A stretch of DNA of 64,000 nt, taken from Rhizobiales bacterium dw_265. GTDB taxonomy: Bacteria > Pseudomonadota > Alphaproteobacteria > Micropepsales > Micropepsaceae. The DNA lies in contig JAAVUU010000006.1 in assembly GCA_018449595.1 (NCBI GenBank), forward strand, positions 124,001-188,000, read 5' to 3'. This document shows positions 1,673 through 46,106 of this stretch, in pieces; the stretch's first letter is position 1, and each line of letters begins with the position of its first letter. Under the pieces are notes generated by a model. The model did not search any database. It was given only the letters and a program-made list of their open reading frames with translations, and had not been told where the DNA came from. The translations under genes were made by a program, and so were the position numbers.

Positions 1673-2496
1673 CAGCGCCGCCCCCGCGGATTGAGGGCAT
1701 CGTTCAGCCCATCACCGATGAAGGCCAGCGCCAGCACCGTCACCATGATGCACAGGCCCGGCAGCACCGTGGTCCACCAGGCCACCCACATGGCCGAGCG
1801 CGAGCCGCCGATCATGCTGCCCCAACTCAGCAGGTTGGGATCGCCCAGCCCCAGGAAACTCAGCGCCGATTCCGTCAGGATGGCGCTGCCCACCATCATC
1901 GAACTCACCACCAGGATCGGCGGCAGGGCATTGGGCAGGATTTCGGCGAAGATGATGCGGGCGTCGCTCAGTCCCAGGGTCTTTGCCGCCTGGACGAACT
2001 CCCGCGCGCGCAGGGCGAGGAATTCGCCGCGCACCACCCGCGCCACCTGCGGCCAGGAAATCAGCGCGATGCCGATGACCGTCGAGGCCAGGCTGGGCTG
2101 CAGGAACGCCACCAGCACCATCAGCAGCACAAAGCTCGGGATGATCTGGAAGAATTCCGTCACCCGCATCAGCAGGTCGTCCACCAGCCCGCCATAATAG
2201 CCCGCCACCGCCCCCAGCAGCACCCCGATCCCCACCGCGCCCAGGGTGGAAGCGATGCCGACCAGAAGCGAGATGCGCGCGCCATAGGCCAGCCCCACCG
2301 CCATGTCGCGGCCCAGCACATCGCTGCCGGCCAAGAGCCCCGGCGCGCCCGGCGGCAACAGCGGCATGCCGACAATGGCGAAGGGCCCGCGCGCGAAGAG
2401 CAGCGGCGCGGCCAGCGCCACCGCCACAATCGCCGCGAAGAGGACAAGGCCGGTCAGCGCAACAGGTCTGGACAGGAAGGCGCGAAGAAATCTCAT
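1672..2496 (-). CDS. Peptide ABC transporter permease, DppC type
   Basis: This 274-residue inner-membrane permease has an N-terminal transmembrane helix (residues 10-35) and an extended periplasmic loop containing the GSDVLGRDM motif typical of DppC/OppC. A BPD_transp_1 domain with five further helices follows. The EAA loop (EFVQAAKTLGLSDARI) that docks onto the ATPase lies near residue 165. The start overlaps the end of the DppB-type gene by 4 bp and its stop overlaps the ATPase start, so the three are co-translated. It is of normal length and appears intact. Confidence 0.95.
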   Translation of the reverse strand: MRFLRAFLSRPVALTGLVLFAAIVAVALAAPLLFARGPFAIVGMPLLPPGAPGLLAGSDVLGRDMAVGLAYGARISLLVGIASTLGAVGIGVLLGAVAGYYGGLVDDLLMRVTEFFQIIPSFVLLMVLVAFLQPSLASTVIGIALISWPQVARVVRGEFLALRAREFVQAAKTLGLSDARIIFAEILPNALPPILVVSSMMVGSAILTESALSFLGLGDPNLLSWGSMIGGSRSAMWVAWWTTVLPGLCIMVTVLALAFIGDGLNDALNPRGRR

Positions 2497-3467: not shown

Positions 3468-3477
3468 GCCAGGCCTT

Positions 3478-30643: not shown

Positions 30644-30903
30644 CCCCGCAACAGGAAGCGACCCTTACTTATCGCAAGCACCCCCGGCACGATCTGCGCG
30701 AACCCGCACTGCGAACCCTTTATCTTCCAGGGCGCGACCGCGCCCCGGCGATCGTCCGCCGCCCCCGCGGAGCCGTCATGCGAAGCATGACCGGCGTGAG
30801 TGTTGTCCGCCCAGTATAGCTGGACTCGGTTTTCAATAAAATCAGGCACTTAGCGAATTCTCGGCATCGGGATTGGACTGATTCGGACTCATATGCCCGG
30901 ACT

Positions 30904-30923
30904 ATCCGGCAAAATTGCCGGAT
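30904..30923. repeat. Palindrome ATCCGGCAA-AA-TTGCCGGAT
   Basis: A perfect 9-bp inverted repeat with a 2-base centre sits in the degenerate region, within the end of the short fragment at 30923. Possible old terminator or element end; no second copy was seen in the window. Confidence 0.45.
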
Positions 30924-31078
30924 CAGGTCGGACTCACCTTTCCACCAGCGCCAATACAAGCGCCCAGGAAGGACCGCACGGCGCCGGATGGCTGGTAGCC
31001 CCAGATGGTCGGGCGTCCAGAAGCTTCCAGAACGCTGGAGAATGCTGCCTCTACCGGGCGCTGCGGCGCACCCGGCGA
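30923..31078 (-). pseudogene. Unidentified gene tail (about 51 codons, no start)
   Basis: The frame is open from a TAA (31079-31081) to a TGA at 30923. It reads EAAFSSVLEASGRPTIWGYQ, then PSGAVRSFLGACIGAGGKVSPT, composition typical of real protein rather than a random frame. No start codon or ribosome site is present. It directly follows the E2-like relic on the same strand and may be the remains of the next gene of that operon. Confidence 0.3.
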
Positions 31079-31305
31079 TTACAGGTCTCAGCATCGTCCG
31101 GGTTGGGATGCTCGCCGCCGCCCTTCCACTCATCGGACCCTAGCCATTCCTCGAAATAGAATAGCCAAGTCGCTGTCCATGGCACGAACGTCTGATCGAT
31201 GCGCATGGAGCCTGCCCATTCATCGGACCCCGGGAGGTAGAGGCCGAGCCTTGTCGGATTGTGATAGATGTGGGGCAAGTCCCTTTGCGAACAGCGATAG
31301 ACGGA
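31051..31305 (-). pseudogene. E2-like (ubiquitin-conjugating-fold) protein relic, active-site cysteine lost
   Basis: The frame opens after an in-frame TGA and reads LPHIYHNPTRLGLYLPGSDEW, then MRIDQTFVPWTATWLFYFEEW and WKGGGEHP. The pattern H-x-Y...L-C-L-Y-x-P...E-W...VPW...WL-x-Y-x-x-W...W-x-GGG-x-HP is, from memory, that of small bacterial E2-like proteins, including those of short type II CBASS loci. The position expected to hold the catalytic cysteine is glycine here (LGLYLP). A plausible ATG at 31315 (MTFDPSIAVRKG) is out of frame by one base. Probably a dead gene. No cyclase or effector gene is recognisable beside it. Confidence 0.45.
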
Positions 31306-31726
31306 TCAAACGTCATCTCACCCTTCATGACGGTCCTCCTGGGCGCGATGTTCATCGGCCACGACTTTGGCATACCGCCGCTGGAGCTAACGGATTTCAT
31401 CCATGCTCCCGGACTTAGGTTGAAGCCCAGCGAATTGCCTGTAACTGCTTGAGAACCCAGACAGTTTTCTGCCAGCCGGATGGCTCCCGGTAAACATGGC
31501 GACGATAAGTCTGGGAGGAAATACCCCCATTTGAGCCTTACAGCGCCCGGCCGCTACGTGCACCTGGAATTTTCATTCTGCGCCCCGATCAAGCCGCCTG
31601 AGGGCGAATTCCTCGGTGGCGCAGCATCAATCGAACCTTGCCTGCGCACCTAGCAGAAGAAGCGCGGGTCAGACACTGTCAACACGGCAACGTCCGGCAA
31701 ACCCAATTGTTAGGATTACGCGGCCC

Positions 31727-33760
31727 TCACTGCCTCTGGGTCCAACACTGATACATTCCTATAAAGGCATTGGGGTTGTCTTGTTCAAAACTGTGCCAGA
31801 GCGATAGATCGTTTTCCCCGCCCAAAAACCGATCTTGAAAGCATCGCATCATGCGCTCGTCCACATCCATACCGATGAAGCGCTGATCCGAACGGGAAAG
31901 AAAATGCTCAATCTCTCGCAATGTGAACAGACTTTCCTGCTCATGAAATAGCATGTCCCGGCATTCGTTGATGCTGTAAAAGTCCGGCATTGACAACAAC
32001 GGCTCGGCTATCTGCGGCTGTGCCAAAATCGCCTGACGTGCTTGACGTATCCCTGCATCGCTTCGCGCCAGCCCTGCCAAACGACGCGCCGGTTCCAAGC
32101 TCCGCCGTGCCAGAGCACTGTAAAGCCCGACCTGCATAAAACCACCAGGGCGCAGCAGGTTCGTCAGGGCACGCCAACCGCCAAGCGGATCATGCAGATG
32201 GTGCAGTACGCCGCCGGCGCTGATGAAATCAAATTTCTGCTCGGAAAGCGCCAGCAAGTCGCCATGCGCGAATGTGATGTTTACGCCAAGCTCGCGCGCC
32301 TTGCGCTTAGCATAGCTCAGACTGGCAAGACTTAGGTCCAGCGCCAAGATGTTCGCTCCGGGTAGCAGTTGAGCGCATTCGATCGCTGAACGCCCGGTCC
32401 CGCACCCTGCCACCAGGACATCCACGACAGGTCTCTCAACCAGACACGCGCGCGGAAAATTGCTGCGCAGATAGGTCGTCAGAGACATGGCCCCGCCGGG
32501 CCGCGCTGCTCTGGTCCAGCGCGGATAGGGATGAGCTTCGTATTGTTCCCGGACCCTTAGTGATGTCTCGTCATGGATGGGCGTGATGGCCTTGATGGTC
32601 TCACGCAGCTTCAGTTCCTCCAAAGGCTCGCCGACCTGCTGCTTCAGCAAATCCGCGACGGGCCGTGGCCAGTTGCTAGCGCAGAGTGTCGCTGCCTCAG
32701 GCATGGCATGGAGCGGTCGATAGGCCGCTCGCGCAACCACATGCTGAATCTCTGTTCCCAGTATGGCAACTGCCTCCTCCTCTTCCGCAGAAACCACGAA
32801 AACATAGCCGTTAATGAAGCACTGCTGCGCCAAGGCGGCATGAAAAGCCAGAGTTGGAGCACTCCAGGGCCGCTCGATGTCTTCGAGCATCGTGCGACGC
32901 GCTTTGGTCAGAAGCTTCTCCATTTCCGGATCGCAGACAGGGGATGAGACCAGCAGAGCCGAAAACAGTGGATCGTTGAAGAGAGCTTCAATGGCACAAC
33001 CATGTCTGCTACGCAGAAACGACAGCACCGGTGCGCAAAGATCGCCAGGCCGGCACCAGCCTTCCGTGAGTGCGCGCAACAGCATCTCCGGGCTTGCATG
33101 AGTTCCCCCCGTCCGAAGAATACGGCCAGCCAAGGCCCGGTTGGCGCCATTGTCATCCAGCACAAGTGCCCGGCCGATGGCAGCAAGAGCAGCTGCCGTC
33201 TCACCCGCCAGGAGATAAAGGAGCGCCATGTTGCTCCATATCGTGGAAGATCGGGGCGCGAGGGTGAGTGCCTGGCGATACGCGGCCTCCGCATCCGCCC
33301 AATGTCCTTCCTCACGCAGCGCGTTTCCCAGATTGGCGTGCGCTTGCGCAAAATCAGGTACCAGCGCCAGCGCGTAACGATAATGTACGATCGCCTGCGA
33401 CCAATCGCCAAGTTCAGCCAACACCGTGCCCAGATTGTTATGGGCCTGCGCAAAATCCGGCCGCAGTGTCAGAGCGCGACGATAACTGTCAGCCGCTTCC
33501 TGAAGCTGTCCCGCATCACATTCGACCGTTCCCAGGTCGTTATGAAACTCAGCGCGGTTCAGATCGGTCGCCACTGCGCGCCGCATCAGCGCCAGCGCCT
33601 CGACATGGTCACCTCCCATATGGACCAGGCTCCCCAACAGGTGCAGCGCTTCCGGATGGTCGGGGATATCGGCCAAGACCGCGCGGCAGGCGAGCGCGGC
33701 CGCGCGGTGCTGCCCGGACCTAGCATGGGCTCTCGCCGCCTCCATCTGCCTGACCGTCAT
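31727..33760 (-). CDS. TPR-repeat protein with C-terminal SAM-dependent methyltransferase domain
   Basis: This 677-residue protein has about six tetratricopeptide repeats in residues 1-215 (for example DFAQAHNNLGTVLAELGDWS and DFAQAHANLGNALREEGHW), an uncharacterised middle, and a class I methyltransferase at about 430-600. Motif I is VLVAGCGTGRSA, followed by LALDLSLASLSYAKRKA and HGDLL with FDFISAGGVLHHLHDP. GAGGGG lies eight bases before the ATG. Such TPR-methyltransferases modify small molecules or proteins; the target is unknown. It is the first intact gene of the A+T-richer segment and is downstream of the MFS relic. Confidence 0.9.
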   Translation of the reverse strand: MTVRQMEAARAHARSGQHRAAALACRAVLADIPDHPEALHLLGSLVHMGGDHVEALALMRRAVATDLNRAEFHNDLGTVECDAGQLQEAADSYRRALTLRPDFAQAHNNLGTVLAELGDWSQAIVHYRYALALVPDFAQAHANLGNALREEGHWADAEAAYRQALTLAPRSSTIWSNMALLYLLAGETAAALAAIGRALVLDDNGANRALAGRILRTGGTHASPEMLLRALTEGWCRPGDLCAPVLSFLRSRHGCAIEALFNDPLFSALLVSSPVCDPEMEKLLTKARRTMLEDIERPWSAPTLAFHAALAQQCFINGYVFVVSAEEEEAVAILGTEIQHVVARAAYRPLHAMPEAATLCASNWPRPVADLLKQQVGEPLEELKLRETIKAITPIHDETSLRVREQYEAHPYPRWTRAARPGGAMSLTTYLRSNFPRACLVERPVVDVLVAGCGTGRSAIECAQLLPGANILALDLSLASLSYAKRKARELGVNITFAHGDLLALSEQKFDFISAGGVLHHLHDPLGGWRALTNLLRPGGFMQVGLYSALARRSLEPARRLAGLARSDAGIRQARQAILAQPQIAEPLLSMPDFYSINECRDMLFHEQESLFTLREIEHFLSRSDQRFIGMDVDERMMRCFQDRFLGGENDLSLWHSFEQDNPNAFIGMYQCWTQRQ

Positions 33761-33817
33761 GGTCGCATCCCCTCTCCCATTGGACCGCGATTGCCGCCGC
33801 CGTGCAAGGCGGCCGGA

Positions 33818-35043
33818 TCACACCGGGCCCGGTCGCTCCATTACAATGCCATGAGCTTCGGGACCAACCTTCATCAGCGCGGCGATAGACAGCGCGGCAA
33901 ATGCCGCCACCACGGCCAGGGCAATGGAATAATTGCCTGTGCGTTCGGCGATGGCTGTCTGCAGGACGGCATTAACCGAGGCGATCAGGTTGCCCAGCTG
34001 ATAATAGGTCCCCGGAAAGGTGCCCCTGGCTGCGGCAGGCGACAATTCATTGAGATGGGCCGGGACCACGCCCCAGGCGCCCTGAACGCAGAACTGCATC
34101 ATGAAGGCTCCCGCAGCAAGCATTCCGGCAGTGGTCGAAAAGGCCCACAGACCCACCACGGGCAACGCCAGAAGCGCTATCACGATCACCGTCCTGCGCC
34201 TGCCAAAGTTCTGGCTGATCGAACCGAAGATCAACCCGCCGGCGATGGCGCCTATATTGTAGATCACGGCGACGTTCTTCACCGTGGCAGGACCGAAGTG
34301 ATGCTGCACCTGAAGGAAGGTGGGATAAATATCCTGGGTGCCATGACTGAAAAAGTTATAACAGGTCATCAGCGCGATGGCATACAGCGCCATCTTCCAG
34401 TGATCGCGCAGTACAGAAAATGTTGAAGCAGCGGGCGACCGCGCCTGCCGGCGATAGAAATGCTGTGATTCTGGGACACAGAAAAAGATATAGGCGATCA
34501 GCAACAACGCCGGCAGCACGCCGCTCATGAACATGCCGCGCCAGCCTATCGCGGCATAAAAAAACCATAAACCAGGGACGCTACCAGATAGCCCGAAGGA
34601 TATCCCGACTGCAGGATGCCCGAAACCATGCCGCGCGCTTTCCCGGGTATGGTCTCCATGGAAAGCGAGGCGCCGATACCCCAGACGCCTCCCATCGCCA
34701 CTCCGAAACAGGCGCAGACCGCATAGAAGGTCCACAGCCCAGTGGTGAAGGCTATGGCGAAGCTGAGCAGCGAATAGAGCAGCACATCCAGCATTAGGAT
34801 GGGACGGCGGCCGAAGTAATCCGCCAACCGGCCGAAGAGAAAGGCGCCGATGGGCTTGCAGGCCAGTGTCAGCATGACCGCGACCGCGATCCTGGGAATG
34901 GATGTACCGAACTGAGCCGCTATATCCTTGAACACAAAAACCATCAGGAAGAAATCGTAGGCGTCCATCGTCCAGGCGAGGTAGCTGGCCGTTACGGTAT
35001 GGATCGCGGCTCCGGTCCATGGCGATGCTTTGCTGAAAACCAT
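33818..35043 (-). pseudogene. MFS transporter of SHS (sialate/lactate-type) family, frameshifted at a run of seven A
   Basis: Two overlapping frames make one carrier. The N-terminal part starts at ATG 35043 (GGAAG upstream) with the SHS signature WTMDAYDFFLMV and GRLADYFGRRPIL, and stops soon after VASLVYGFFM. The C-terminal part continues as FFYAAIGWRGMF and contains FSHGTQDIYPTFL, diagnostic of the SHS group, to 33818. The break lies at A7 (34558-34564, T7 in the gene); adding one base restores VYGFFYAAIGW. It is either a true inactivating deletion, a phase-variable homopolymer or a sequencing error. Neighbouring cupin genes suggest it imports an organic acid. Confidence 0.85.
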
Positions 35044-35066
35044 CGTGTCTTCCGGTCCTGCCAATG

Positions 35067-35474
35067 TCAGGGCACGGCAGCGGGGGTTAGCAGCGGCTTG
35101 CCTTTGTCGACCGTCCAGGCATTGACCAACTTGACCGCTTCATCGCCCAACGGAACGGAGCGGTGGATAGCGCCGCGCGGAACCATAAAGCTGTCGCCAG
35201 GACCCAGTTCGCGCGGCGCCTGGCCCACGACTTCCAGGCGGATGTGTCCCTGCACGACATATCCCATCTCACTACCATAATGGGTATGGAACGGATTGCC
35301 GCTGCCCGGGGCGACTTCGACGGTGCCGAACAGGGTTTCCTGCGCAGGATCGGCAGCGACATCCGCTCGCTGCAGGATAATGCGCCGCGCCGCCGGCTTG
35401 GGCGTATCCTGTGCAGCGGCGGAAACCAGACAGACCGTGAGAAACGCGACAGTGAAACCGGACCAGCGCATCAT
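35067..35474 (-). CDS. Exported single-domain cupin protein
   Basis: This 135-residue protein has a signal peptide (RWSGFTVAFLTVCLVSAAAQ) and one cupin domain with metal-ligand motifs: GNPFHTHYGSEMGYVVQG (H-x-H...E) and GDSFMVPRGAIHRS (H). The start at ATG 35474 with AGG upstream is preferred; a longer frame to 35678 is an artefact. It is third of three consecutive exported cupins. A catalytic role (isomerase or dioxygenase-like) on the compound handled by the cluster is possible but not shown. Confidence 0.85.
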   Translation of the reverse strand: MMRWSGFTVAFLTVCLVSAAAQDTPKPAARRIILQRADVAADPAQETLFGTVEVAPGSGNPFHTHYGSEMGYVVQGHIRLEVVGQAPRELGPGDSFMVPRGAIHRSVPLGDEAVKLVNAWTVDKGKPLLTPAAVP

Positions 35475-35479
35475 GGCAC

Positions 35480-35974
35480 CTATTGCCGGATGAAACCGGG
35501 AGCCCCAGGGGTAGCAGTCTTCTTGCCGCTGGGCCCCACCCCCATCATCTGCACGATGGTCTCTTCGTTCCGGGCGCCGTCGTAATGCACCTTGCCGGCG
35601 GGATGGATCATAATCCCTCCGACCGGAATCCCCACCGCCGAGGCGGGATCGAACTTGTCGCCGGTCCCTGTCCACCAAGTGCCCTTGATCACGGTGCCAA
35701 TCCGGGTCTCGGGATGGGAATGGGGCGTGCTCATCACCCCGGGCGGAAATTTCAGGCGAATGACATACAGGCCTTGCTTGGTGGGATCACCATAGATGAA
35801 AGCTTCCTTGATGCCGAATTTGGCACCGTCGCCGGGATAGTCCACCCATTTGATCGTTTCCGGCGTCAGGCGCAGGAAATCGGTACCGTCGGAACCCATA
35901 TTCTGACCATGGACGACGGTGCCACCGGCCACCGCCAGAAAAGCAGCAAGGCCGGCGATCTTCCAATTTTTCAT
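35480..35974 (-). CDS. Exported cupin protein
   Basis: This 164-residue protein has a signal peptide (KIAGLAAFLAVAGGTVVHGQ) and a cupin fold: PPGVMSTPHSHPETRIGTVIKG supplies the H-x-H-x3-E set, and HPAGKVHYDGARNEE the last histidine. GGAG lies nine bases before the ATG at 35974. Proteins of this kind resemble the DUF4437/ChrR-type cupins. It is five bases from the next cupin gene, hence an operon. Confidence 0.85.
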   Translation of the reverse strand: MKNWKIAGLAAFLAVAGGTVVHGQNMGSDGTDFLRLTPETIKWVDYPGDGAKFGIKEAFIYGDPTKQGLYVIRLKFPPGVMSTPHSHPETRIGTVIKGTWWTGTGDKFDPASAVGIPVGGIMIHPAGKVHYDGARNEETIVQMMGVGPSGKKTATPGAPGFIRQ

Positions 35975-36003
35975 GATGCTGAACTCCAATATTGGCTGGG
36001 ACG

Positions 36004-36933
36004 TCATTCGCCGCCGGTATGTTCGGACTGGTAGTAATGCAGACTGGGCGGGCGTGGTGTGACCGCCAGGCGCGTCCCCATGGCGGTGCCGCCCGAGGTG
36101 GCACGATGCCAGCGCTCCTCGGGGGCAAACACGATGTCGCCGACGTTGGCGGTGATCGGTGGCACGCCCTCGATCAGGAAATCGAGCTTACCTTCCAATA
36201 CGATCCAGAACTCCGCGAAGTTCTCGTGGAAATGGCCGTAATTGCTGTCCGGCGGCGTGGGAATGCCCGGCGTGCGGATGATATTGGCCCAGGTATGATC
36301 ATCCTTGACAAAAGGACCGCCCTTGCCATTTGCCCCCACAATGTCTTTTTCAAAATCGATATAGAGCCTGTTGATCTCGTCATACTTGCCGCGGCCCGTA
36401 TAACTCGCCTTGGTGAATTTGAAGCCGGGCACGGGCACAGGCGTTTCGGCGATCGGATAGCTTGGGGTTTCACCTGCCGCCCGCACCTCAAAACGCAGCG
36501 ACGGCGCAGTGCCTACCGTTTCCATGCTGTAGGGAATGCGATAAGGCACTTGCACCAGGAAACCCTTCGACGCCACGAACGGCTCCTGGCCCTCGACGGT
36601 GAAGCGAATCTGCCCCGACATTACAACCCAGAAGACGCGGTCGTCGGCATAGAATTGGGTCTTGGTCTTTCGGCCAGGAGCCATGGAGATATACTGTCCG
36701 ACGTAATCGCGGGTCAGCACCTCAGTCTCGGCCCAGTCGCTCTGACCGGCATGACGAGCCAAGATATCGGACAGCCGCCTGAGCGGCTTGTTGGGCGGTG
36801 TGAACGGCGCCGGCTTTTTCGGCTGTGGCGCCCATGCCAGCAAGGACGCGGACTTCTCAGGCTGGGCCCCCGCCACGACGGCCGTCAGCAGCGACAGAAC
36901 AACGAAAGATGCGGCGTATCTCAATGAAAACAT
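36004..36933 (-). CDS. Exported two-domain cupin (bicupin)
   Basis: This protein of about 309 residues has a signal peptide (FSLRYAASFVVLSLLTAVVAGAQ). The first cupin half (about 60-160) has weak ligands. The second (about 225-300) carries GHFHENFAEFWIVLEGKLDF and GDIVFAPEERWH, an intact H-x-H...E...H metal site. GGGGGAA ten bases upstream selects ATG 36933 rather than the TTG at 36951. It leads the cupin series and is preceded by the 39-bp element shared with the TonB receptor gene. Confidence 0.85.
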   Translation of the reverse strand: MFSLRYAASFVVLSLLTAVVAGAQPEKSASLLAWAPQPKKPAPFTPPNKPLRRLSDILARHAGQSDWAETEVLTRDYVGQYISMAPGRKTKTQFYADDRVFWVVMSGQIRFTVEGQEPFVASKGFLVQVPYRIPYSMETVGTAPSLRFEVRAAGETPSYPIAETPVPVPGFKFTKASYTGRGKYDEINRLYIDFEKDIVGANGKGGPFVKDDHTWANIIRTPGIPTPPDSNYGHFHENFAEFWIVLEGKLDFLIEGVPPITANVGDIVFAPEERWHRATSGGTAMGTRLAVTPRPPSLHYYQSEHTGGE

Positions 36934-37023
36934 CCGATGTGCTTCCCCCAAAATGCTTGTTATTTTTCTATTTTCCGTCGTCGATTGTTGGCAAGCGATC
37001 CTGCGCCGTCAACGCTGCACGGA

Positions 37024-37062
37024 CGATTTGTTTTGATCGCATCATCTGCTTTTGTGATCGCG
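37024..37062. promoter_or_regulatory. 39-bp element upstream of the cupin operon, shared with the TonB receptor gene
   Basis: CGATTTGTTTTGATC at the left end, then ATCTG, TTTTG, GAT and GCG at fixed distances, are identical to 41289-41327 (31 of 39 positions counted by eye). The element lies 91 bp before the bicupin start on the same relative strand as the second copy, 83 bp before the TonB gene. Within it TTTTG-x0-2-GATC-like units repeat about two helical turns apart, as expected for a dimeric activator such as LysR. Confidence 0.6.
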
Positions 37063-37088
37063 TCCCTGATGCGCCGTAAGATCGAATA

Positions 37089-37964
37089 TCATATCGCACG
37101 GAATGCCTTTCCATACAGGCGGGCGGAGTCGAGGAAAGTGGATAAAGCGCTGGAGACGAAACCGTCGCGGCGGCGCGCGAACAATGTCTGCACCTGGCAA
37201 TCCTCGCCGGTGACGCGGTGGGCGCGCATCGCATCGGGCGGCGCCAAGTTGAGCACCGCGCGCGGCAGCAGGGTGACGCCAAGCCCGGCGCCGACGCAGC
37301 CCACGATCAACTCCAGCGTGTCAAGCTCCATGACGCGGGCGACCTCGATATTCTGGCGGGCAAGAATGGCGCGCAACCGGCGTTGGTAATAGCTGCCCTG
37401 CCCCAGCACAATCAGCCTTGTGTTGGATGGGATCGCCGCGATGCTGGAAATTTCAGGGGCGGTGAAAACCGCCAGTTCCTCGTCCAGGATGATCTCGGTC
37501 ACCAGATCGTGGTGCTTGGCCGGATCGCAGACGAAAGCGCCCTCGATCCGGCGCTCCAGGATCAGATCGGTCAGCAGAGGCGTCGTTTCGGTGCGCACCG
37601 TGATGTCCACCGCCGGAAATTCAGCCAGATAGGAGCATAGCAGCTTGTTCAGATGCAGGGCGGTAGTGGTCTTGCGCGAACCGATCACCAATGGCCCACT
37701 GGGCGTGCCGCCATCGGTAATGGCGCGCTTGGCGTTTTCGATTTCCACCCGGACTTCAATAGCGTAAGGCAACAGCCGGATACCTGCCGGTGTCAGAACC
37801 ATGCCGCTCGAGCGCCGCTCGAACAACAGAACTCCCAGCTCATCTTCCAGAGCGCGAATGTGGGCCGTCACGTTGGATTGGACCGTATTCAGTTCCAGCG
37901 CCGCGCGCTTCATGCCCTCATGGCGCGCCACCGCTTCGAAAACCCTGAGATCCTTGACATCCAA
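37089..37964 (-). CDS. LysR-family regulator (first paralogue, TTG start)
   Basis: The 291-residue form starts at TTG 37964, seven bases after GGAG, and reads LDVKDLRVFEAVARHEGMKRAA. The paralogue at 43493 begins MDAKDLRVFEVVARHEGMKRAA, so this start is well supported and the longer frame (334 residues) is wrong. It has an N-terminal winged helix (NTVQSNVTAHIRALEDELGVLLFERR) and a LysR substrate domain (GPLVIGSRKTTTALHL). It is close to CbbR/CysB-like regulators of unknown inducer. It probably controls the adjacent cupin and TonB genes. Confidence 0.92.
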   Translation of the reverse strand: MDVKDLRVFEAVARHEGMKRAALELNTVQSNVTAHIRALEDELGVLLFERRSSGMVLTPAGIRLLPYAIEVRVEIENAKRAITDGGTPSGPLVIGSRKTTTALHLNKLLCSYLAEFPAVDITVRTETTPLLTDLILERRIEGAFVCDPAKHHDLVTEIILDEELAVFTAPEISSIAAIPSNTRLIVLGQGSYYQRRLRAILARQNIEVARVMELDTLELIVGCVGAGLGVTLLPRAVLNLAPPDAMRAHRVTGEDCQVQTLFARRRDGFVSSALSTFLDSARLYGKAFRAI

Positions 37965-38064
37965 AGCCGTTCTCCGCCTCAAAAAGAAGATGAGCGCCGC
38001 GACATAAGCCGCAGCGCTCAAGACCTGGCCGCTCAGGGGGACTAAGCGATCAGTCTTTACCTCG

Positions 38065-38124
38065 GGGCCCATGAAGCGTGGGCCCAAAGGCAACCTCGAC
38101 GCACATACTGCTTGCGGGCAGTAT
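38065..38124 (-). terminator. Two stem-loops after the TonB receptor gene
   Basis: ATACTGC-TTGCGG-GCAGTAT (38105-38124) lies five bases past the stop, and GGGCCCA-TGAAGCG-TGGGCCC (38065-38085) further on. Both are perfect 7-bp stems. Neither is followed by a U-run, so they may end transcription weakly or protect the message 3' end. Confidence 0.4.
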
Positions 38125-38128
38125 ATGC

Positions 38129-41100
38129 TTACATTTTGACGCGCACACCCAAGCGGTAATAGCGCCCGACGATATCATAGGTCGTCACATTGATGCCGCT
38201 GGAGGAAACTGCAGGCGGCAGATTGGCGATATTATCTACTTTGCCGTAAACCTGCGTCGTGTCGCTCAGATTGTAGCTGGCACCGACGTCGAGATAAAAT
38301 GCACCATCCATATGGTTATAGTTGATGGTCGGGTTGGCGACCGTAGGCAACGGACAGCTTCCGACATCGCATTGAATGTACGACTTGTTGAACACGCCAT
38401 CGGAAAACCAGCGCTCGGTAAGAGTCAAGCTACCCCAGTCAGCGGTGTAATCCTCGGTGACGTACGCCTTCCACAGAGGCGTTGTACCTCCGGTGGCATT
38501 GTAGGTTGTGCTGGTGCTGAAATTGGCTAGCGCGCCGGCGGTTTCGGAAATCGGCTGACCCGGCACGCCAGGATCGGTGATGAACTTGCTGGTATGATTG
38601 ACCAAAGCGCGCAAAGTGAAGGCGCCGGGGACGTTCCAGTCCTGCAAGTCGAACTGATAGGACGATTCAATGTCGAACCCATCCGTCGTCTGCGACGCTA
38701 GATTGAATACTTGTGAGACGATTTGCTTGAATGGAGACGTCGCCGCCGGACCGCCATCGGCGGTTACGATTACATTGCCACCGCAATAAGCAGCGTTGCC
38801 GTAATAGCACAGGTCCACGACGTTCTGGATCGAGAGCGCAGCAATTACACCTTTGACGGCGATGCGGTAATAATCGACCGAGGTGCTGAAGCCGGGGAGC
38901 CAGTCAGGCTGGAAGACCACGCCAATCTCGGTGGTTTGCGACTTTTCAGGCTTCAGCGCCAGGTTGCCCGCATTGACCTGCTGGACGCTAACCGCCGGCG
39001 TGCCTGGCAGGAAGTCGTTCTTAACCGTGGAATTCATAACCGAGCTCGGTGCGAACAATTCGCTGAGGTTCGGAGCGCGCACGTCGCGCGATTGCAGGGC
39101 GCGCAGACGGACGCCGGGAATCGGCGTTTCCCAAGTACCACCAACCTTCCAGGTCATCACCTGTCCAGAGGTGCTGTAGCCCGTCATGCGACCGGCAAGA
39201 TCAACATCCATTTTTCCCCAGGTTGCATCGTTGAGCACCGGAATTCCGACTTCCACGAAACCTTCGCTTTCGTGATAGTTGCCCTTACCATCATGGAAAT
39301 TGCCGGCATACCAACTGTTGCCGGCGGTTCCAGTCACCGGATCGACAGGATACGCCATGGTGTTGGGATTGGTGGCCGTGACGCCGTTGCCGTATGGATC
39401 ATCATAGGTGTTATAGGCTTCCTCGCGATATTCCACACCGGTAGCCAACGCGATCGGGCCGGCCCAATCCGAGAAGGGCGTGCCATTGACACTGAGGCTG
39501 AATGCCTCCTGCCTTTGACTGGTGATGGAGTAGGGGCCATCGGCCGGCTCGACATAGGCTAGCGCTTCCGGCGAAATCGGCACGTCGCCGATGATGTTGA
39601 GCGGCACGCAACCCGCCGCCTGCGCAACCGCCGAGCGGCACACGATGGAGCCGTTGGGACCTGCCACCGCGTCAATTGCTGCATTGTAGCGCGGGGTCAG
39701 CGACATGTTCTTGATATGGATGCTGGTATCTGACTCGCCGTGTTCGAAATAGCTGTCCCATGACCAGTCCTTGTTAAACAGGCGGAACTGGCCATCTGCG
39801 CCGACTACATAACGGCGCTGGGCATGATAAACGTCGATCTGCTCATAATTTGGGAAAGCGGCGCTTTCGGTGCCGTACTGGAAGTTCGTGATGTTGTTGG
39901 CGATGCAGGCCGCGTTGATCGAGGCGGGCAGGAACGCGTTGGGACCACCGGGAGCATTGCCGCACTGAATGGTGAGGTTTGCGTTCTTGTAGGGGCCCGG
40001 ATTGGGGTGGCTCATGCCGCGGGAGACGCCGAAATTGACCGTGGCATAGACCTCCATATCCGGCGTCAGGTTGTAGGATAGGCGGGTGTAGAAATTGCCG
40101 CGCGTCAGGGCGGACTGTAGTGTTTGCCCGCTCTGGAAGCTGCTGAGATCTCCCGGATCCGCGGCGGTGCCGAAGCAGGTGGGGCTGACGCAGCCATTCA
40201 CCGCACCGCTGGCGGAGTGGGACGGAGTGCCGCCGCCGGCATAATTGAAGTTATAGGGCGCGCCGTTGACGCCGAAGCCGATACCCTGCAGCGGGCCGGC
40301 CGTGATCAGACCATACTTCGTATACTGATAATTCTGCGCCGGGGCACCAAACGTATATTCCGGCGAACCGGCAGGCGTCGCCGCGATGGAACGCATCTGG
40401 ACACCGGTGAATTGATTGAAATTGCGGCCGTCGATGCCGTGGCTGTCATAGCCGGTATCGGCCGGATGGCCGGTCGGCTGGATGCCGGGACTGTACATGT
40501 ATTCGGCGGCCCCCTCGATATGACCGCGCCCCCCGAACAGGTCGGTGCCCAAGGCGATCTGGCCGGTGCCGCCTTCGTCATCACCATAATTGCTGATGCC
40601 GCCTTGAATATTAGCCTTCAGGCCAGTGAAGTGCTTGTCGGTTACGAAGTTAACCACGCCCGCCACCGCGTCGGAGCCCCAGGAGGCAGACGCGCCGCCG
40701 GTCACCACATCGACACGCTGCAGCAGCAGCTGCGGCATTAAGCTGACATCGACCACGCCGTTGAAGTTGGAGCCCACGACGCGCTGGCCATCCAGCAGTG
40801 TCAAGGTGCGCAGCGGACTGAGGCCGCGCAAGGCAAAAGCGGAAATGCCGTTCAGGCCCGTGCTGGTTGAACCGGTTTCGTAGGTCGTGCCGGTGCTGCC
40901 CTGCAATGCGGGCAACTGCACGATAGCGTCGAAAACATTGGGCTGGGCATTCTTCTCGATGTCGGCGGCCCCCACCACGGTGGTCGGCGTGGGTGCATCG
41001 AAGCCTGCGCTCTGCAGGCGTGTGGATGAGACGACGACCTGCTCGACCTGTTCGCTGGCGGCCTGGGCAGAGGCCGACGTGGCCCCCGCCACGGACGCCA

Positions 41101-41206
41101 TCAGCAGCAGCGCGGCCGCGCTGGTTGTCGACATCATATGCTTGCCGCGAAAAATAGCGATGTTATGCAACGGCGCAATGCGCCGGTTGCCGTATCGAAC
41201 CGTCAT
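38129..41206 (-). CDS. TonB-dependent outer-membrane receptor
   Basis: This protein of about 1025 residues has a long signal region ending SVAGATSASAQ near residue 48, then a TonB-box-like EQVEQVVVSSTR. The plug domain (about 60-180) has GLNGISAFALRGLSPLRTLTLLDGQR and DVVTGGASASWGSDAVAGVVNF. A barrel follows and ends with YYRLGVRVKM. GAGG before ATG 41206 selects the start over 41338. The plug and length fit the oligosaccharide/aromatic receptors of Sphingomonas-Caulobacter type rather than small siderophore receptors. It probably imports the substrate of the PQQ dehydrogenase. Confidence 0.93.
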   Translation of the reverse strand: MTVRYGNRRIAPLHNIAIFRGKHMMSTTSAAALLLMASVAGATSASAQAASEQVEQVVVSSTRLQSAGFDAPTPTTVVGAADIEKNAQPNVFDAIVQLPALQGSTGTTYETGSTSTGLNGISAFALRGLSPLRTLTLLDGQRVVGSNFNGVVDVSLMPQLLLQRVDVVTGGASASWGSDAVAGVVNFVTDKHFTGLKANIQGGISNYGDDEGGTGQIALGTDLFGGRGHIEGAAEYMYSPGIQPTGHPADTGYDSHGIDGRNFNQFTGVQMRSIAATPAGSPEYTFGAPAQNYQYTKYGLITAGPLQGIGFGVNGAPYNFNYAGGGTPSHSASGAVNGCVSPTCFGTAADPGDLSSFQSGQTLQSALTRGNFYTRLSYNLTPDMEVYATVNFGVSRGMSHPNPGPYKNANLTIQCGNAPGGPNAFLPASINAACIANNITNFQYGTESAAFPNYEQIDVYHAQRRYVVGADGQFRLFNKDWSWDSYFEHGESDTSIHIKNMSLTPRYNAAIDAVAGPNGSIVCRSAVAQAAGCVPLNIIGDVPISPEALAYVEPADGPYSITSQRQEAFSLSVNGTPFSDWAGPIALATGVEYREEAYNTYDDPYGNGVTATNPNTMAYPVDPVTGTAGNSWYAGNFHDGKGNYHESEGFVEVGIPVLNDATWGKMDVDLAGRMTGYSTSGQVMTWKVGGTWETPIPGVRLRALQSRDVRAPNLSELFAPSSVMNSTVKNDFLPGTPAVSVQQVNAGNLALKPEKSQTTEIGVVFQPDWLPGFSTSVDYYRIAVKGVIAALSIQNVVDLCYYGNAAYCGGNVIVTADGGPAATSPFKQIVSQVFNLASQTTDGFDIESSYQFDLQDWNVPGAFTLRALVNHTSKFITDPGVPGQPISETAGALANFSTSTTYNATGGTTPLWKAYVTEDYTADWGSLTLTERWFSDGVFNKSYIQCDVGSCPLPTVANPTINYNHMDGAFYLDVGASYNLSDTTQVYGKVDNIANLPPAVSSSGINVTTYDIVGRYYRLGVRVKM

Positions 41207-41288
41207 CGTTTCCCCTCTGTGTTTTTTGGCATCTCTGCCTTCGCTAACAGATGGGTTAGGAAGCCGATCCAAGTCAATTCTTGTGGAG

Positions 41289-41327
41289 CGATTTGTTTTG
41301 ATCTGCCGATCTGTTTTTGCGATTGCG
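41289..41327. promoter_or_regulatory. 39-bp element upstream of the TonB receptor gene
   Basis: Second copy of the element at 37024-37062, same orientation. The mismatches are concentrated in the middle five bases. The left half (CGATTTGTTTTGATC) is identical. It lies in the 229-bp divergent interval between the TonB receptor and PQQ dehydrogenase genes, so it might also serve the latter; a looser GATTTG...TTTGATTTT resemblance occurs at about 41358-41383. Confidence 0.6.
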
Positions 41328-41435
41328 GCAATCAACATCGTTGCGATGACATCGCTTGATTTGCGCAGTGCTTTGATTTTGGAATGTCACCGAGCCGTGA
41401 TGGCACTCATCGCCGGCGCACAGGAGACGATCGCG

Positions 41436-43502
41436 ATGACTTCCCTTACCAGGCGAACCCTGCTTTCGACAGCGGCCGTCGGCCTTTCCACATCAGTTTG
41501 GCCTGCATCGGCGCATGCATCTACCGATAGCGATTGGCGCAATTATGCCAACGATCTGGCCAACAGCCGGTATGCACCGCTGGACCAGATCAATGCTTCG
41601 AACTTCAGCAACCTGGAAGTGGCATGGCGCTTCCGCACCGAAGCGTTAGGACCGCACCCCGAATATCAATATGAGGCGACGCCACTCGTCATAAGCGGAA
41701 AACTTTACAGCACTGCAGGATCGCGGCGCGACGTGATCTGCCTCGATGCAGCGAGCGGCGAGATCATCTGGATGCACGGCGAAAATGAGGGTGAGCGTGG
41801 TACCAACGCACCGCGGCAGCTGTCGGGACGCGGTGTCGCCTATTGGACGGACGGTACCGGCGACGGCCGCATCCTGTATGTGACGCCGGGTTATCGCCTG
41901 ATCGCTCTGGATGCAAGGACCGGAATTCCCATTGAAGGATTTGGAAGCAACGGCGTCGTCGATCTCAAGCTCGATGACGATCAGCAGATTGATCTCGTCA
42001 CCGGAGACGTGGGGTTACATGCTACGCCGGTCGTGGCCGGCAATGTAGTGATTGTCGGCGCAGCCCATCTCTCGGGCAGCGTTCCCAAGCACCGCGGCAA
42101 TATTAAGGGCTATGTGCGCGGCTTCGATGTTAGGACCGGCAAGCGTATCTGGATCTTCCACACGATCCCACTCAAGGGCGAATTCGGTTACGACACATGG
42201 CTGCATCCAGGGGATGCGGAAATAGCCGGCAACGCCGGATGTTGGGGCCAGATCTCGGTGGATATGGAACTCGGCCTCGCTTATCTGCCCATTGAACTTC
42301 CGAGCGGCGATGAAGTCGGTATTTATCGTAGCGGATCGGCATTGTTTGGCGAGAGCATTGTCGCCGTTGAACTTCAGACCGGCAAACGCCGCTGGCATTA
42401 CCAGACAGTTCATCATGGACTTTGGGACCGCGATATTCCATGCGCCCCGCTCCTGTGCGACATCCCCCATGAGGGTCGGATCGTCAAAGCGCTGGCGCAA
42501 CCGACCAAGCAATGTTTTCTCTATGTACTGGATCGCGAGACCGGCAAACCGATCTGGCCGATTCCTGAGAGGCCGCAACCCGCCGGCAACGTGCCCGGAG
42601 AGTGGTACTCTCCGACGCAGCCGATTCCCTCACGACCGCCGGCATACGATGTGCAATCTATCAACGCCGATACGATAATAGATTTTACGCCCGAGCTACA
42701 TGCGAAGGGACTGGAAATCATCTCGCATTATCGTACCGGCGGCATCTATACCCCGCCGACACTTTCGACCTCCGGCGGCAGTTGGGGATCGTTGGTCGCG
42801 CTGACGACGCAGGGCGGCACCAACTGGCCAGGCGGCGCCTACGACCCCGAAACACACTTGGCTTATGTCTTCTCGCAAACCACGGCCGGCGCGATGGGCG
42901 TGGTGCCTGTCACCGATAAGAAGGTGTCGGAATTTGCGTATGTCCATGGTATGGCCGGCGAGGAAACCAAGCCAGTCGGCGTCATGGGCGGTATATCACG
43001 GCCCGGCGTTCCGGCGAAAGAAGCACCTCCGGCAGGTGGCCTGCATCCAGGCCGGCTGATGGTGGACGGCCTGCCCCTGATGAAACCGCCATACGGGCGT
43101 ATTACCGCCATCGACCTCACCAAGGGCAACATAGCTTGGCAGATAGCACACGGCGAGACCCCGGACTATATCCGCAATCATCCTGCCCTGAAGGGCCTCA
43201 AAATTCCCCGTACGGGACGGCCTGGACTATTGGGGGTAACGCTGACGAAAACACTGGTTATCTGCGGCGAGGCTGGCTTTTTCACGACCCCCTCGGGCCG
43301 ACGCGGCGCGATGCTACGAGCCTATGACAAGGCGAACGGTGAAGAAAAAGGCGCTGTCTATATGCCTGCGCCACAGACCGGTTCTCCCATGACCTTCATG
43401 CTGGACGGACGCCAGTATATCGTGGTGGCCATAGGGGGAGGCGGCTATCCAGCCGAATTGATCGCGTTCTGCCTGCCGCGCGATCGTCAGGGTCAGGCTT
43501 GA
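41436..43502 (+). CDS. Tat-exported PQQ-dependent dehydrogenase (quinoprotein glucose dehydrogenase-like)
   Basis: This 688-residue periplasmic protein has a twin-arginine signal (TRRTLLSTAAVGLSTSVWPA, cleaved near SAHA). An eight-bladed PQQ propeller follows: DWRNYANDLANSRYAPLDQI, GDGRILYVTPGYRLIALDARTG, KLYSTAGSRRDVICLDAASG, GRITAIDLTKGNIAWQIAHGE. It lacks the N-terminal membrane domain of mGDH, so electrons go to a soluble or membrane acceptor not in the window. AGGAG lies nine bases before ATG 41436. Its end overlaps the convergent LysR gene by 10 bp. The substrate is unknown; family members oxidise sugars, alcohols and shikimate-type acids. Confidence 0.92.
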   Translation: MTSLTRRTLLSTAAVGLSTSVWPASAHASTDSDWRNYANDLANSRYAPLDQINASNFSNLEVAWRFRTEALGPHPEYQYEATPLVISGKLYSTAGSRRDVICLDAASGEIIWMHGENEGERGTNAPRQLSGRGVAYWTDGTGDGRILYVTPGYRLIALDARTGIPIEGFGSNGVVDLKLDDDQQIDLVTGDVGLHATPVVAGNVVIVGAAHLSGSVPKHRGNIKGYVRGFDVRTGKRIWIFHTIPLKGEFGYDTWLHPGDAEIAGNAGCWGQISVDMELGLAYLPIELPSGDEVGIYRSGSALFGESIVAVELQTGKRRWHYQTVHHGLWDRDIPCAPLLCDIPHEGRIVKALAQPTKQCFLYVLDRETGKPIWPIPERPQPAGNVPGEWYSPTQPIPSRPPAYDVQSINADTIIDFTPELHAKGLEIISHYRTGGIYTPPTLSTSGGSWGSLVALTTQGGTNWPGGAYDPETHLAYVFSQTTAGAMGVVPVTDKKVSEFAYVHGMAGEETKPVGVMGGISRPGVPAKEAPPAGGLHPGRLMVDGLPLMKPPYGRITAIDLTKGNIAWQIAHGETPDYIRNHPALKGLKIPRTGRPGLLGVTLTKTLVICGEAGFFTTPSGRRGAMLRAYDKANGEEKGAVYMPAPQTGSPMTFMLDGRQYIVVAIGGGGYPAELIAFCLPRDRQGQA

Positions 43503-44407
43503 ACCAGCGACAGCATCCGGCGAGGCCGTTCGTCATGCAGATGCTGGCGGCCATAGGCGCGCGCGCAGTCGAGGAAGGCGGACAGGGCACTCGAAACGAA
43601 GGCATCGCCACGCCGCACGAACAGCGTCTGAACCCTGCAATCTTCGTCCGCCACGCGATGAGCTCGCACACTGCCCCGAGGAGAAATCATGTTGAGCACT
43701 GCGCGCGGCAACAATGTGATACCCAGACCGGCACTTACACAATCCACGATTACTTCCAATGTTCCCAACTCGATTATCCGGCCGGCATTGACACCCCGGC
43801 GTGCAAGCAGCGCCTGCAACTGGTTCTGGTAGAAGCTGCCCTGCCCAAGCACCACCAGCTTGATGTCGTGCGGAATGTCTTTCATCCGGTGGATGTTGGG
43901 CGATGTCAGAACCACAAGCTCTTCGTCCAGAATGACTTCGCCTACCAAATCATGATGATCCACGGGATCGCAGACGAATGCTCCCTCGATGCGGCGTTTC
44001 AAGATCAGATCCTTCAACAACGGAGAGGTCTCGGTGCGGACCTTGATGTCCACGTCAGGGAAATCGCCCAAATAGGAAGCGAGAATCCGCCCGAGATGCA
44101 TGGCTGTCGTGGATTTACGCGATCCAATCACCAGCGGGCCAGACGGCGTTCCCCCATCGGTGGCGGCGCGCCTGGCATCTTCGATCGTGGAGCGCACTTC
44201 ATGAGCATAAGGAAGCAAACGAAGTCCCGCGGGCGTCAGGACCATGCCGGTCGGACGTCGCTCGAATAGCGACACCCCCAGTTCATCCTCCAGCGCACGA
44301 ATGCGCGCTGTCACATTGGACTGTACGGTGTTCAGTTCCCTGGCAGCCCGCTTCATGCCTTCATGGCGGGCCACAACTTCAAATACTCTCAGATCCTTCG
44401 CATCCAT
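43493..44407 (-). CDS. LysR-family regulator (second paralogue)
   Basis: This 304-residue protein is highly similar throughout to the regulator at 37089 (for example NTVQSNVTARIRALEDELGV, GPLVIGSRKSTTAMHL, RRIEGAFVCDPVDHHDLV). GGAGG lies six or seven bases before ATG 44407. The two paralogues flank the TonB receptor and PQQ dehydrogenase genes, and probably arose by duplication inside the cluster. They may bind the same 39-bp element in response to different ligands. Confidence 0.93.
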   Translation of the reverse strand: MDAKDLRVFEVVARHEGMKRAARELNTVQSNVTARIRALEDELGVSLFERRPTGMVLTPAGLRLLPYAHEVRSTIEDARRAATDGGTPSGPLVIGSRKSTTAMHLGRILASYLGDFPDVDIKVRTETSPLLKDLILKRRIEGAFVCDPVDHHDLVGEVILDEELVVLTSPNIHRMKDIPHDIKLVVLGQGSFYQNQLQALLARRGVNAGRIIELGTLEVIVDCVSAGLGITLLPRAVLNMISPRGSVRAHRVADEDCRVQTLFVRRGDAFVSSALSAFLDCARAYGRQHLHDERPRRMLSLVQA

Positions 44408-44612
44408 TACTGCCCTCCCTTCCGCTCTTCGGCGGCCGACAATTATCTCCGAAATGGCAGAAACAACAACTTATAGCTTCCATTGAGACAGTCCAACCGG
44501 AGCGAAGCAGGCGCGAATTGATGGTGCGAATGCTAAGTCGCGGCACAACCAATACCAACGAATACCTGCTTTATCGCGACATAAGCTATTGATTCAAATT
44601 CTATTTCCGAGC

Positions 44613-44726
44613 GTCTCTGACATCGCCAAAGAGCACGGTGTCAGCGCTGAACTGTGCCAGTGGCGCGTGCGGATGACGGGAGTGGATTATCAGCTCGGCG
44701 TTAAAGCGCGCGGGCGCTCTCATTGA
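44613..44726 (+). pseudogene. Transposase helix-turn-helix remnant (IS3/IS66 OrfA-like)
   Basis: Thirty-seven codons read VSDIAKEHGVSAELCQWRVR, then MTGVDYQLGVKARGRSH and a stop. The V-S-x-I-A-x-x-H-G-V-S pattern is the recognition HTH at the start of many insertion-sequence OrfA proteins. Nothing upstream or downstream continues the gene, so this is a scrap of an old element. Confidence 0.4.
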
Positions 44727-44740
44727 TCAAGTTATGCCGT

Positions 44741-45455
44741 TTAAACGACTCTCTGTAGCTTGGAGGCGCTCTGGTATTCTGCAAGCCGCTGCGTGAAATT
44801 TCCCTTCGTATCGTGACGGTCGCTCAAGGCGGCGGCGCCGAAGAGCGGCCCATGTTCCTCGAACCGATCGATCCAGTCGATGACGGTCGTGAAGCCAGGG
44901 GCCCTCTCGGTCGGCTCCTGCCGGCGGCGTTTGAGCGCAATCGACCTGATGATCGGGACCAAAATAGTTCGGAGCGACAATAGTCAGGATGAGCTTTGCA
45001 TTCGGTGACATAATCCAACTTGCGCGTGTTGGCGACGTCGCCCACGGTTAGGGGGCTTCCCCATCCAGCGCAATGTCGACAAACGATGCGGGGCACATGG
45101 CCGGGAACCCCAGCGTGCGCCGCTCGGCACCATGATAGTATTGGGTGGAGGCACCGCGTTCGGTCGGGATGCCCCAGTTCGCCGACCCCATATGCACAAT
45201 GCCCCGGCGCACATAGAGCAGCGGAAACCGCTCGCCTTGGTCCAGAAGATGCGGCACAGGAAGCGTTCCCCATGCATCTTCCACGGTGACACGCGGAAAG
45301 TTGCAGCGAAACTGGCCGGGGACGAAGAAGTTGCGGGCAAAGTCCGCAATAGGCTTTTCAATACCGATGCGGACATGCAGGCGGGTGAGATCGAAAGGGT
45401 GTGCGTATTTCAACGGGAGGGGTCCTTGAGAGTGCGCGGGCGACGGCGCCTCCAA
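44741..45455 (-). pseudogene. Broken coding stretch of unknown family
   Basis: The minus-strand frame 45048-45455 (135 codons) is protein-like: KPIADFARNFFVPGQFRCNF, TLPVPHLLDQGERFPLLYVR, SANWGIPTERGASTQYYHG. After its stop the neighbouring frame continues as VGDVANTRKLDYVTECKAHP. A third frame (44741-44980) then gives PGFTTVIDWIDRFEEHGPLF and KGNFTQRLAEYQ. The succession of frames suggests one or two genes ruined by frameshifts. No family could be recognised. Confidence 0.35.
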
Positions 45456-45706
45456 GGGGGCGAACTGCGCGCGCAGATGCTCTGGTCACCGCAGTGACGA
45501 GCAGTCGTTGGTGGGGTAAAATGGATACTGGACGCGACCCGCGCCGATGCAATCCAGTGCCGGAATCCTGCAATGACTGGATAGATTTGTCAATAATTTC
45601 AATCTCTTGCCGCGGATTCCGCGCCGAGGTGGATAACAAAACAGGGTTTACGCCCAGGTCTGTCGGACTTGCCTGTCCCAGATCATGGCAAACATGACAA
45701 GGGGCC

Positions 45707-45862
45707 TCATCGCGGTGGCGCCTTTTTGTCCGTGTGCCACTCCATATCGATGTTGAGACACCAGTTATCGAAATCCAAGATCACCATACCGGCGGCATCC
45801 TCAGCCCACTGGAACAGCATGAACCAGGCTCCCGAATGCGGCCTTACGCTCTCTTTTTTGGG
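45707..45862 (-). pseudogene. Short gene-end fragment of unknown family
   Basis: Fifty-one codons between stops include AWFMLFQWAEDAAGMVILDF, then DNWCLNIDMEWHTDKKAPPR. The residue mixture is that of a folded protein, and there is no proper start. Probably the 3' end of a lost gene. Confidence 0.25.
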
Positions 45863-46106
45863 CTACGCCGGAATTAAGATTGCGCCCGTTTTCCGGTACT
45901 GAGGCGATCCGATCCTCATTCCTAGACTTAATCTAAGAGTGGCCGAAGTCCTGCGCGAACGACCGGAACGGTCGCTGCCCAGTATAATTCGCCTAATTTT
46001 TGTTGGGCGTTGATGCGGCGGTCATTCGCGGTGGTCCGCACCACCTCTGCTGCTGCAGTCCAATTTTATTTGGCCGAGTCCGGCCATTTGTGGCGGACAA
46101 CAAAAA

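Follow-up and report, generated by a model that had tools for sequence, protein, structure and literature searches.

The window analysed here is a 64,000-nucleotide stretch of DNA, bases 124001-188000 of contig C18, from Rhizobiales bacterium dw_265, a soil- or freshwater-type bacterium whose 4.2-Mb genome is assembled in 21 contigs and judged 98.6% complete. The window holds a locus in which genes for a TonB-dependent receptor, a quinoprotein dehydrogenase of the pyrroloquinoline quinone (PQQ) type, three cupins, a carrier and two LysR regulators are gathered. Seven of these genes occupy the minus strand of 33818-44407 (in order the putative SHS-family carrier, cup3, cup2, dcup, LysR1, the TonB receptor and LysR2), and the quinoprotein gene is on the plus strand, divergent from that of the receptor. 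The features are as follows.

33818-35064, minus strand: putative MFS carrier of the SHS family (2.A.1.12-like), frameshifted (NCBIfam TIGR00891 best for both halves; alignment with the relative L267)
34546-35064 and 33818-34600, minus strand: N-terminal and C-terminal pieces of the carrier, in different frames
34558-34564, minus strand: run of seven T, the joint of the carrier's two frames
35067-35471, minus strand: cup3, predicted exported single cupin of 134 amino acids (aa) with an HxH..E..H motif (Cupin_2, E 3e-16; alignment)
35480-36007, minus strand: cup2, predicted exported single cupin, 175 aa as opened, likely start Met12 at about 35974 (model and homolog alignment)
36004-36933, minus strand: dcup, predicted exported double cupin of 309 aa (family match, alignment and model)
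37024-37062, unstranded: copy 1 of the operator-like site, some 90 bp ahead of where dcup starts
37089-37964, minus strand: LysR1 regulator, start uncertain (HTH_1, LysR_substrate)
38129-41137, minus strand: TonB-dependent receptor (plug and barrel; the open frame extends to 41338, with a signal-like start near 41137)
41289-41327, unstranded: copy 2 of the operator-like site, in the receptor-quinoprotein intergenic region
41436-43502, plus strand: quinoprotein (PQQ) dehydrogenase with a predicted twin-arginine (Tat) type export signal and without a membrane domain (PF01011, E 2.8e-170)
43493-44407, minus strand: LysR2 regulator, paralog of LysR1 (72% identity)

The family matches of the locus genes are far above curated cut-offs, cup2 excepted. 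dcup and cup2 overlap by four bases, the gap between cup2 and cup3 is eight bases, and two bases separate cup3 from the carrier if the latter starts at TTG; from this tight spacing, dcup-cup2-cup3-carrier is therefore likely to be a single operon. A sequence-only reading of the region had placed at 33818-43502 a candidate pathway comprising a TonB receptor, a PQQ dehydrogenase, three exported cupins, an SHS carrier and regulators. Family matches confirm the receptor, the dehydrogenase, the cupins and LysR; the carrier is not one frame, the 309-aa cupin has to be corrected to a double cupin, and the second of the two LysR genes lies outside that span.

There are strong signs that the two transcription units belong together, the strongest evidence being a 39-bp site of regulatory type that stands upstream of both. 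Its two copies agree at 31 of 39 bases and share the pattern CGATTTGTTTTGATC-5-ATCTG-1-TTTTG-1-GAT. When up to three mismatches are allowed, this pattern has two matches in the 4.2-Mb genome, both at the locus, against none for a reversed-pattern control, and the pair of sites scores 19.0, compared with 12.5 for the best of 150 dinucleotide-shuffled pairs. The view that the genes form one unit is thereby supported, and independent regulation was not seen in the sequence. The obvious candidate to bind the putative operator is a LysR protein, whichever of the two paralogs that may be (the comparison of LysR1 and LysR2 covered the fetched loci). The 12-mer CGCGACATAAGC is found upstream of both LysR genes, at about 37999 and 44574, and is perhaps an autoregulation site. 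A promoter-like pair (37012-36984, minus strand) lies just downstream of site copy 1, the number of such pairs in the region being within chance. A terminator-like hairpin of 13 pairs (37991-38020, minus strand), of a kind whose number in the region is not above chance, stands between the receptor end and LysR1 and suggests that these two genes may be on separate transcripts.

The chemistry had been placed in the periplasm on the strength of export signals, which are indeed predicted for the quinoprotein, the receptor and all three cupins. The quinoprotein N terminus (MTSLTRRTLLSTAAVG...) has a twin-arginine pattern, and the cupins and the receptor start with a hydrophobic core followed by an alanine-rich end. 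Maximal Kyte-Doolittle hydropathy over 11 residues is 2.3 to 2.9 in the cupins and receptor and 0.67 in LysR2; with the same measure the Tat-type core of the quinoprotein reaches 1.44 and a cytoplasmic-looking control, a TPR-methyltransferase, 1.87, and we treat this simple and imperfectly discriminating measure as supportive.

The quinoprotein matches PF01011 with 568 bits (cut-off 26.7) and aligns with the part of E. coli Gcd that runs from residue 150 to the C terminus, at 30% identity. Gcd Asp466 and Lys493, which we take to serve in catalysis and PQQ binding, respectively, are matched by Asp333 and Lys360 of the window enzyme (P0008), and the position of Gcd His262 is a gap. Its top NCBIfam model is TIGR03074 (the glucose/quinate/shikimate group), to which it scores 365 bits, below the cut-off of 832.65; the N-terminal membrane domain typical of TIGR03074 is absent, its own N terminus being the Tat-type signal.

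In dcup the metal motif HxH..E..H is conserved in the C-terminal barrel only, where H234, H236, E241 and H276 show no variation across 20 aligned double cupins or in an alignment of 28 rows. Its AlphaFold model (predicted local distance difference test, pLDDT, 90.9) is a bicupin, and on VIA-align it matches salicylate/gentisate 1,2-dioxygenases (Z 20.1-21.0, root-mean-square deviation (rmsd) 2.9-3.6, 227-242 residues aligned), quercetinases (Z 19-20, among them the quercetin dioxygenase YxaG at Z 20.1, rmsd 3.6, 230 aligned), and oxalate decarboxylases and seed storage globulins (Z about 17-19), at sequence identities of 10-16%. For the modelled dcup these matches establish the fold and leave the reaction unassigned. 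Matches of cup2 to cupin family models are weak (E 0.0003 to 0.007). A cupin barrel is seen in the alignment of its homologs and in its structure model (pLDDT 86.2), which matches single-cupin folds, the Mn-cupin TM1459, hydroxynitrile lyase, DMSP lyases and KdgF being matched about equally. The HxH pair is invariant in the cup2 and cup3 alignments, and a later histidine is invariant in cup3 and nearly so in cup2. Assigning cupin functions by fold search was set aside, as it returned general cupin folds only, within the families on the VIA-align list. The libraries searched assign no function to exported double cupins of the dcup family.

The two halves of the carrier meet at the seven-T run. 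A relative from genome G070 (L267, 433 aa, one open frame) aligns to both, with 53% identity over 35097-34558 and 67% over 34564-33839; the frameshift call is made from this one protein, two further relatives (L266 and L268) being represented by overlapping non-carrier frames. TIGR00891 scores 133.6 and 182.8 bits against the two halves of the broken frame (cut-off 552.9). Carrier relatives at E 1e-30 or better are present in 55 of 96 genomes of the family, the own genome included, and their open frames are mostly longer than 400 aa. The break is either real or an assembly error.

The receptor matches the Pfam plug and barrel families and is one of many, there being 40 first-look TonB candidates in the own genome (G000) and up to 58 in a relative. 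Its identification as the PQQ receptor PqqU was rejected, the best match to E. coli PqqU being a 148-column plug alignment at E 0.007.

Across the same 96 family genomes the components are unevenly distributed. dcup occurs in 21 (E 1e-10), all in the own genus, one of seven; the family is expanded there, with seven matches in the own genome and up to 14 per genome. The quinoprotein type is found in 32 genomes (E 1e-150; six in the own genome) and the receptor in 17 (E 1e-150), none but itself above 54% identity. cup2 occurs in 39 (E 1e-6), exceeding 60% identity in only one other genome, G055, and cup3 in 16 (E 1e-10), with six other genomes at 65-74%; at E 1e-20 cup3 was found in 2 of 385 genomes of a class sample, the own genome included. 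cup3 was also considered as a marker of the module and dropped, its six close family orthologs not being adjacent to dcup.

A scan of genome contigs beyond the family yielded 104 confirmed relatives of dcup, from which 78 loci were kept; relatives outside the family belong to Alphaproteobacteria, Steroidobacter/Peristeroidobacter (Steroidobacteraceae), Sphingobium and several Acidobacteria groups. dcup was gene-called in 67 of the 78, and rates of neighbouring genes per 100 kb were counted around these at 0-3, 3-6 and 6-10 kb. Quinoproteins are concentrated close to dcup (5.2, 1.1 and 1.3, respectively), as are small cupins (3.8, 0.0, 0.3), TonB receptors (2.6, 1.4, 0.0) and lactonases (1.4, 0.7, 0.0), and at least one of the first three lies within 10 kb in 25 of the 67 loci. 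These loci are not independent, with several per genome, and the profiles were partly built from the same loci. In the own genome three of five dcup loci are at most 5 kb from a quinoprotein-type gene, against a mean of 0.28 under random placement (P 0.0017), in a test that counts a few propeller fragments as genes. In four genomes of the genus (L189, L191, L193 and L198) the arrangement resembles that in the window: dcup, a small cupin and a quinoprotein share one strand, and TonB lies on the opposite one. LysR is present in three of the four, hydantoinase-type genes in three and a D-serine-dehydratase-like cluster gene in all four (its Pfam family taken from one member). All three cupins together with a receptor were found only in L210, from a metagenome-assembled genome (MAG) of Caulobacteraceae, among 145 stretches compared with the window proteins, some contigs having been fetched twice; here TonB is followed by cup2 (61%), dcup (47%) and cup3 (65%), and then by a two-component pair (histidine kinase and sigma-54-type regulator) and a DctA carboxylate carrier.

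Some other dcup neighbourhoods are worth recording. Just left of the window, L043 (G000:C18:105000-124999) has a cytochrome-c-quinoprotein fusion next to a second dcup (54%), and genes of the D-galactonate-type transporter, galactonate-dehydratase-like and KDPG-aldolase kinds accompany them. Five double-cupin genes are consecutive at 775-5728 of one short contig (L080, G083:C148). On Sphingobium indicum pSRL1 (L103, 39913-70680) are two quinoproteins, three cytochromes c, SMP-30, two cupins, an MFS carrier, a TonB receptor, a CoA transferase and an enoyl-CoA hydratase, and similar stretches occur in Steroidobacter-type genomes and two other Sphingobium.

With a probability of about one half, we read the locus as a jointly regulated, probably LysR-controlled, unit for the uptake of a small multi-hydroxyl compound, its periplasmic oxidation to an acid, and import of the product. 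What was observed is the gene set, the export-type N termini, the operator-like site common to both transcription units, the matched catalytic residues of the quinoprotein and the recurrence of the neighbourhood. As to substrate class and order of steps, we infer that the compound, most likely a sugar, a sugar-like polyol or a glycoside-derived alcohol, would enter via the TonB receptor and be oxidised in the periplasm by the soluble quinoprotein, with PQQ taken from the surroundings; the product of this oxidation might then undergo isomerisation, opening or cleavage by the three cupins, and the SHS-type symporter would import the resulting carboxylate. With the carrier frameshifted, import may have been lost or may be served by another carrier, unless the break is an assembly error. 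An acid is suggested as the imported product, since carboxylate carriers of two families, SHS and DctA, come after the same cupins. Gene context leans towards a sugar: an arabinofuranosidase-like exported gene lies beside a 71% dcup ortholog (L057) and again in the stretch of a cup2 ortholog (L143), the two copies being 85% identical; L143 also carries a sorbosone/glucose dehydrogenase, and other dcup loci include SMP-30, lactonase, galactonate-dehydratase-like, KDPG-aldolase, D-galactonate-type transporter, PdxA, DHDPS and Gfo/Idh genes. The alcohol and aldehyde dehydrogenases, CoA transferase and enoyl-CoA hydratase of pSRL1 would also fit other small alcohols.

A number of observations weigh against this reading. 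The sequence-only reading proposed a search for the same set in other genomes, and the whole set was found in none of the others among the 96 family genomes searched; the scattering in relatives that it named as counter-evidence is seen in G055, where the dcup, cup2 and cup3 orthologs are on three separate contigs (C6, C29 and C24). The 11 kb covered of L210 show no quinoprotein, the contig starting within the TonB gene. As evidence, the sugar theme amounts to context rather than proof, because sugar-acid transporter, dehydratase and aldolase families are not concentrated near dcup: in the 67 loci the rates at the three distances are 0.9, 1.1 and 2.0 for ACS-type transporters, 0.9, 0.7 and 1.6 for enolase-type dehydratases (MR), and 0, 0.7 and 0.3 for KDPG aldolase. 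No cytochrome c or other electron acceptor is found within the locus, the carrier is frameshifted as sequenced, and the own genome has neither PqqE nor PqqC over curated cut-offs (PqqA, PqqB and PqqD were not searched). What stands of the earlier proposal is a co-regulated unit whose quinoprotein, small-cupin and TonB families gather within 3 kb of double cupins elsewhere, and whose receptor and three cupins recur in the Caulobacteraceae MAG; conservation of the full set does not, and the carrier is broken as sequenced.

The organism's apparent inability to make PQQ, with PqqE and PqqC below cut-offs, had been overlooked in the earlier reading. In the family PqqE is over the cut-off in 21 of 96 genomes, PqqC in 20 and at least one of them in 22. 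Genomes with dcup have neither (0 of 21, against 22 of 75 others; Fisher P 0.0027), and a comparison restricted to the genus gives 0 of 21 against 7 of 48 (P 0.09), the P values being guides only, as the genomes are related; in G076, one of the dcup genomes, a weak match of PqqC type reaches 49 bits, far below the cut-off of 240. Both genes are missing from 28 of the 32 genomes with this quinoprotein type, and the own genome holds about two dozen matches to PQQ-type propellers. In dcup genomes, therefore, either PQQ is scavenged by some route or the quinoproteins do without it. This could mean that the TonB receptor imports PQQ rather than the substrate and feeds the divergent quinoprotein, an explanation that would agree with the absence of synthesis genes and with the operator-like site lying between the receptor and quinoprotein genes. 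A further point of agreement is that the 96 genomes yielded no PqqU homolog reaching E 1e-40, in a search made without a positive control. We nevertheless think it very unlikely, as the receptor shares with E. coli PqqU no more than the general plug, the related receptor in L210 adjoins cupins with no quinoprotein in view, and many other TonB receptors are available in the own genome and its relatives. An aromatic or quinate/shikimate-type substrate, with the quinoprotein oxidising a cyclic alcohol and the double cupin acting as a ring-cleaving dioxygenase, is quite unlikely. The dcup model is indeed closest to salicylate/gentisate 1,2-dioxygenases and YxaG, and the top model of the quinoprotein is the glucose/quinate/shikimate group; however, identity to those dioxygenases is low (10-16%), Z values of 17-19 are reached by oxalate decarboxylases and seed storage proteins as well, the metal motif is confined to the C-terminal barrel, and no dehydroshikimate dehydratase or ring-cleavage gene is among the annotated window genes.

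Another explanation, unlikely in our view, is that the locus is a decayed, horizontally gained remnant whose parts no longer form a pathway. Such an origin would account for the broken carrier, for a G+C content of 0.591 across 30644-46106 compared with 0.659 and 0.651 on the flanks, for stretches of about 1.1 and 1.7 kb with no recognisable gene on both sides and for a tRNA-Arg at the right edge, but all other genes are full open frames with their catalytic or metal motifs kept, the operator pair is intact, and neither an integrase among the annotated window genes nor a repeat of the tRNA end was found.

As to the surroundings, it is at this tRNA-Arg that the low-G+C segment ends, and the stretches without recognisable genes lie at 30650-31720 and 44410-46100; within the latter, frames at 44824-45455 have the appearance of a decayed gene and no Pfam match. 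A genomic island with att sites was considered and is not borne out, comparison of the tRNA-Arg end with the window having given only chance matches of 10-14 bases and the annotated genes no recognisable integrase.

Under the reading of an uptake and oxidation unit, the locus represents an uncharacterised kind of periplasmic oxidation whose component families recur together in changing combinations. A literature search, with most subscription journals outside its coverage, found no paper on this gene set. It would be a long shot that the locus is an undescribed periplasmic pathway of a quinoprotein-rich alphaproteobacterial lineage unable to make PQQ, with the three cupins acting in successive steps on the oxidised product and the adjacent TonB receptor belonging to a class, unrelated to PqqU, that supplies PQQ or PQQ plus substrate. 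In any case, the locus is compact and has a single predicted operator, which makes it open to testing, and its substrate may be found through regulator binding or transcript response.

Compared with known systems, the window quinoprotein shares with E. coli Gcd and TIGR03074 30% identity over the propeller and the Asp466 and Lys493 positions, and differs in its Tat-type signal, the missing N-terminal membrane domain, the His262 gap and its sub-cut-off score. The system of PqqU (PMC12124388) is alike in that a TonB receptor occurs in a cell with a quinoprotein but no PQQ synthesis; the window receptor is homologous in the plug only. The same source expects Alphaproteobacteria to be mainly PQQ producers, largely without PqqU, an expectation on which the lack of PQQ synthesis in quinoprotein-rich alphaproteobacteria bears. 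The Caulobacteraceae MAG RYN_455 locus (L210) has TonB, cup2, dcup and cup3 consecutively, as here; it differs in that DctA, preceded by the kinase and sigma-54-type regulator, replaces the SHS carrier and in that no quinoprotein is seen in the part covered. The polyethylene glycol and polyvinyl alcohol operons of sphingomonads also bring together a TonB receptor, an exported or membrane dehydrogenase, a permease and a regulator in one locus, to our knowledge without cupins. Sphingobium indicum B90A pSRL1 and similar loci in Sphingobium and Steroidobacter add cytochromes c, a CoA transferase, an enoyl-CoA hydratase, aldehyde and alcohol dehydrogenases and SMP-30; relatives of cup2 or cup3 were not found in loci of this type, and for the related MFS carriers in Steroidobacter and S. 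ummariense the best-scoring type is D-galactonate rather than SHS. Their likeness to the window lies in a quinoprotein 65% identical to P0008 and a double cupin 45% identical to dcup, with a TonB receptor and an MFS carrier in the same stretch.

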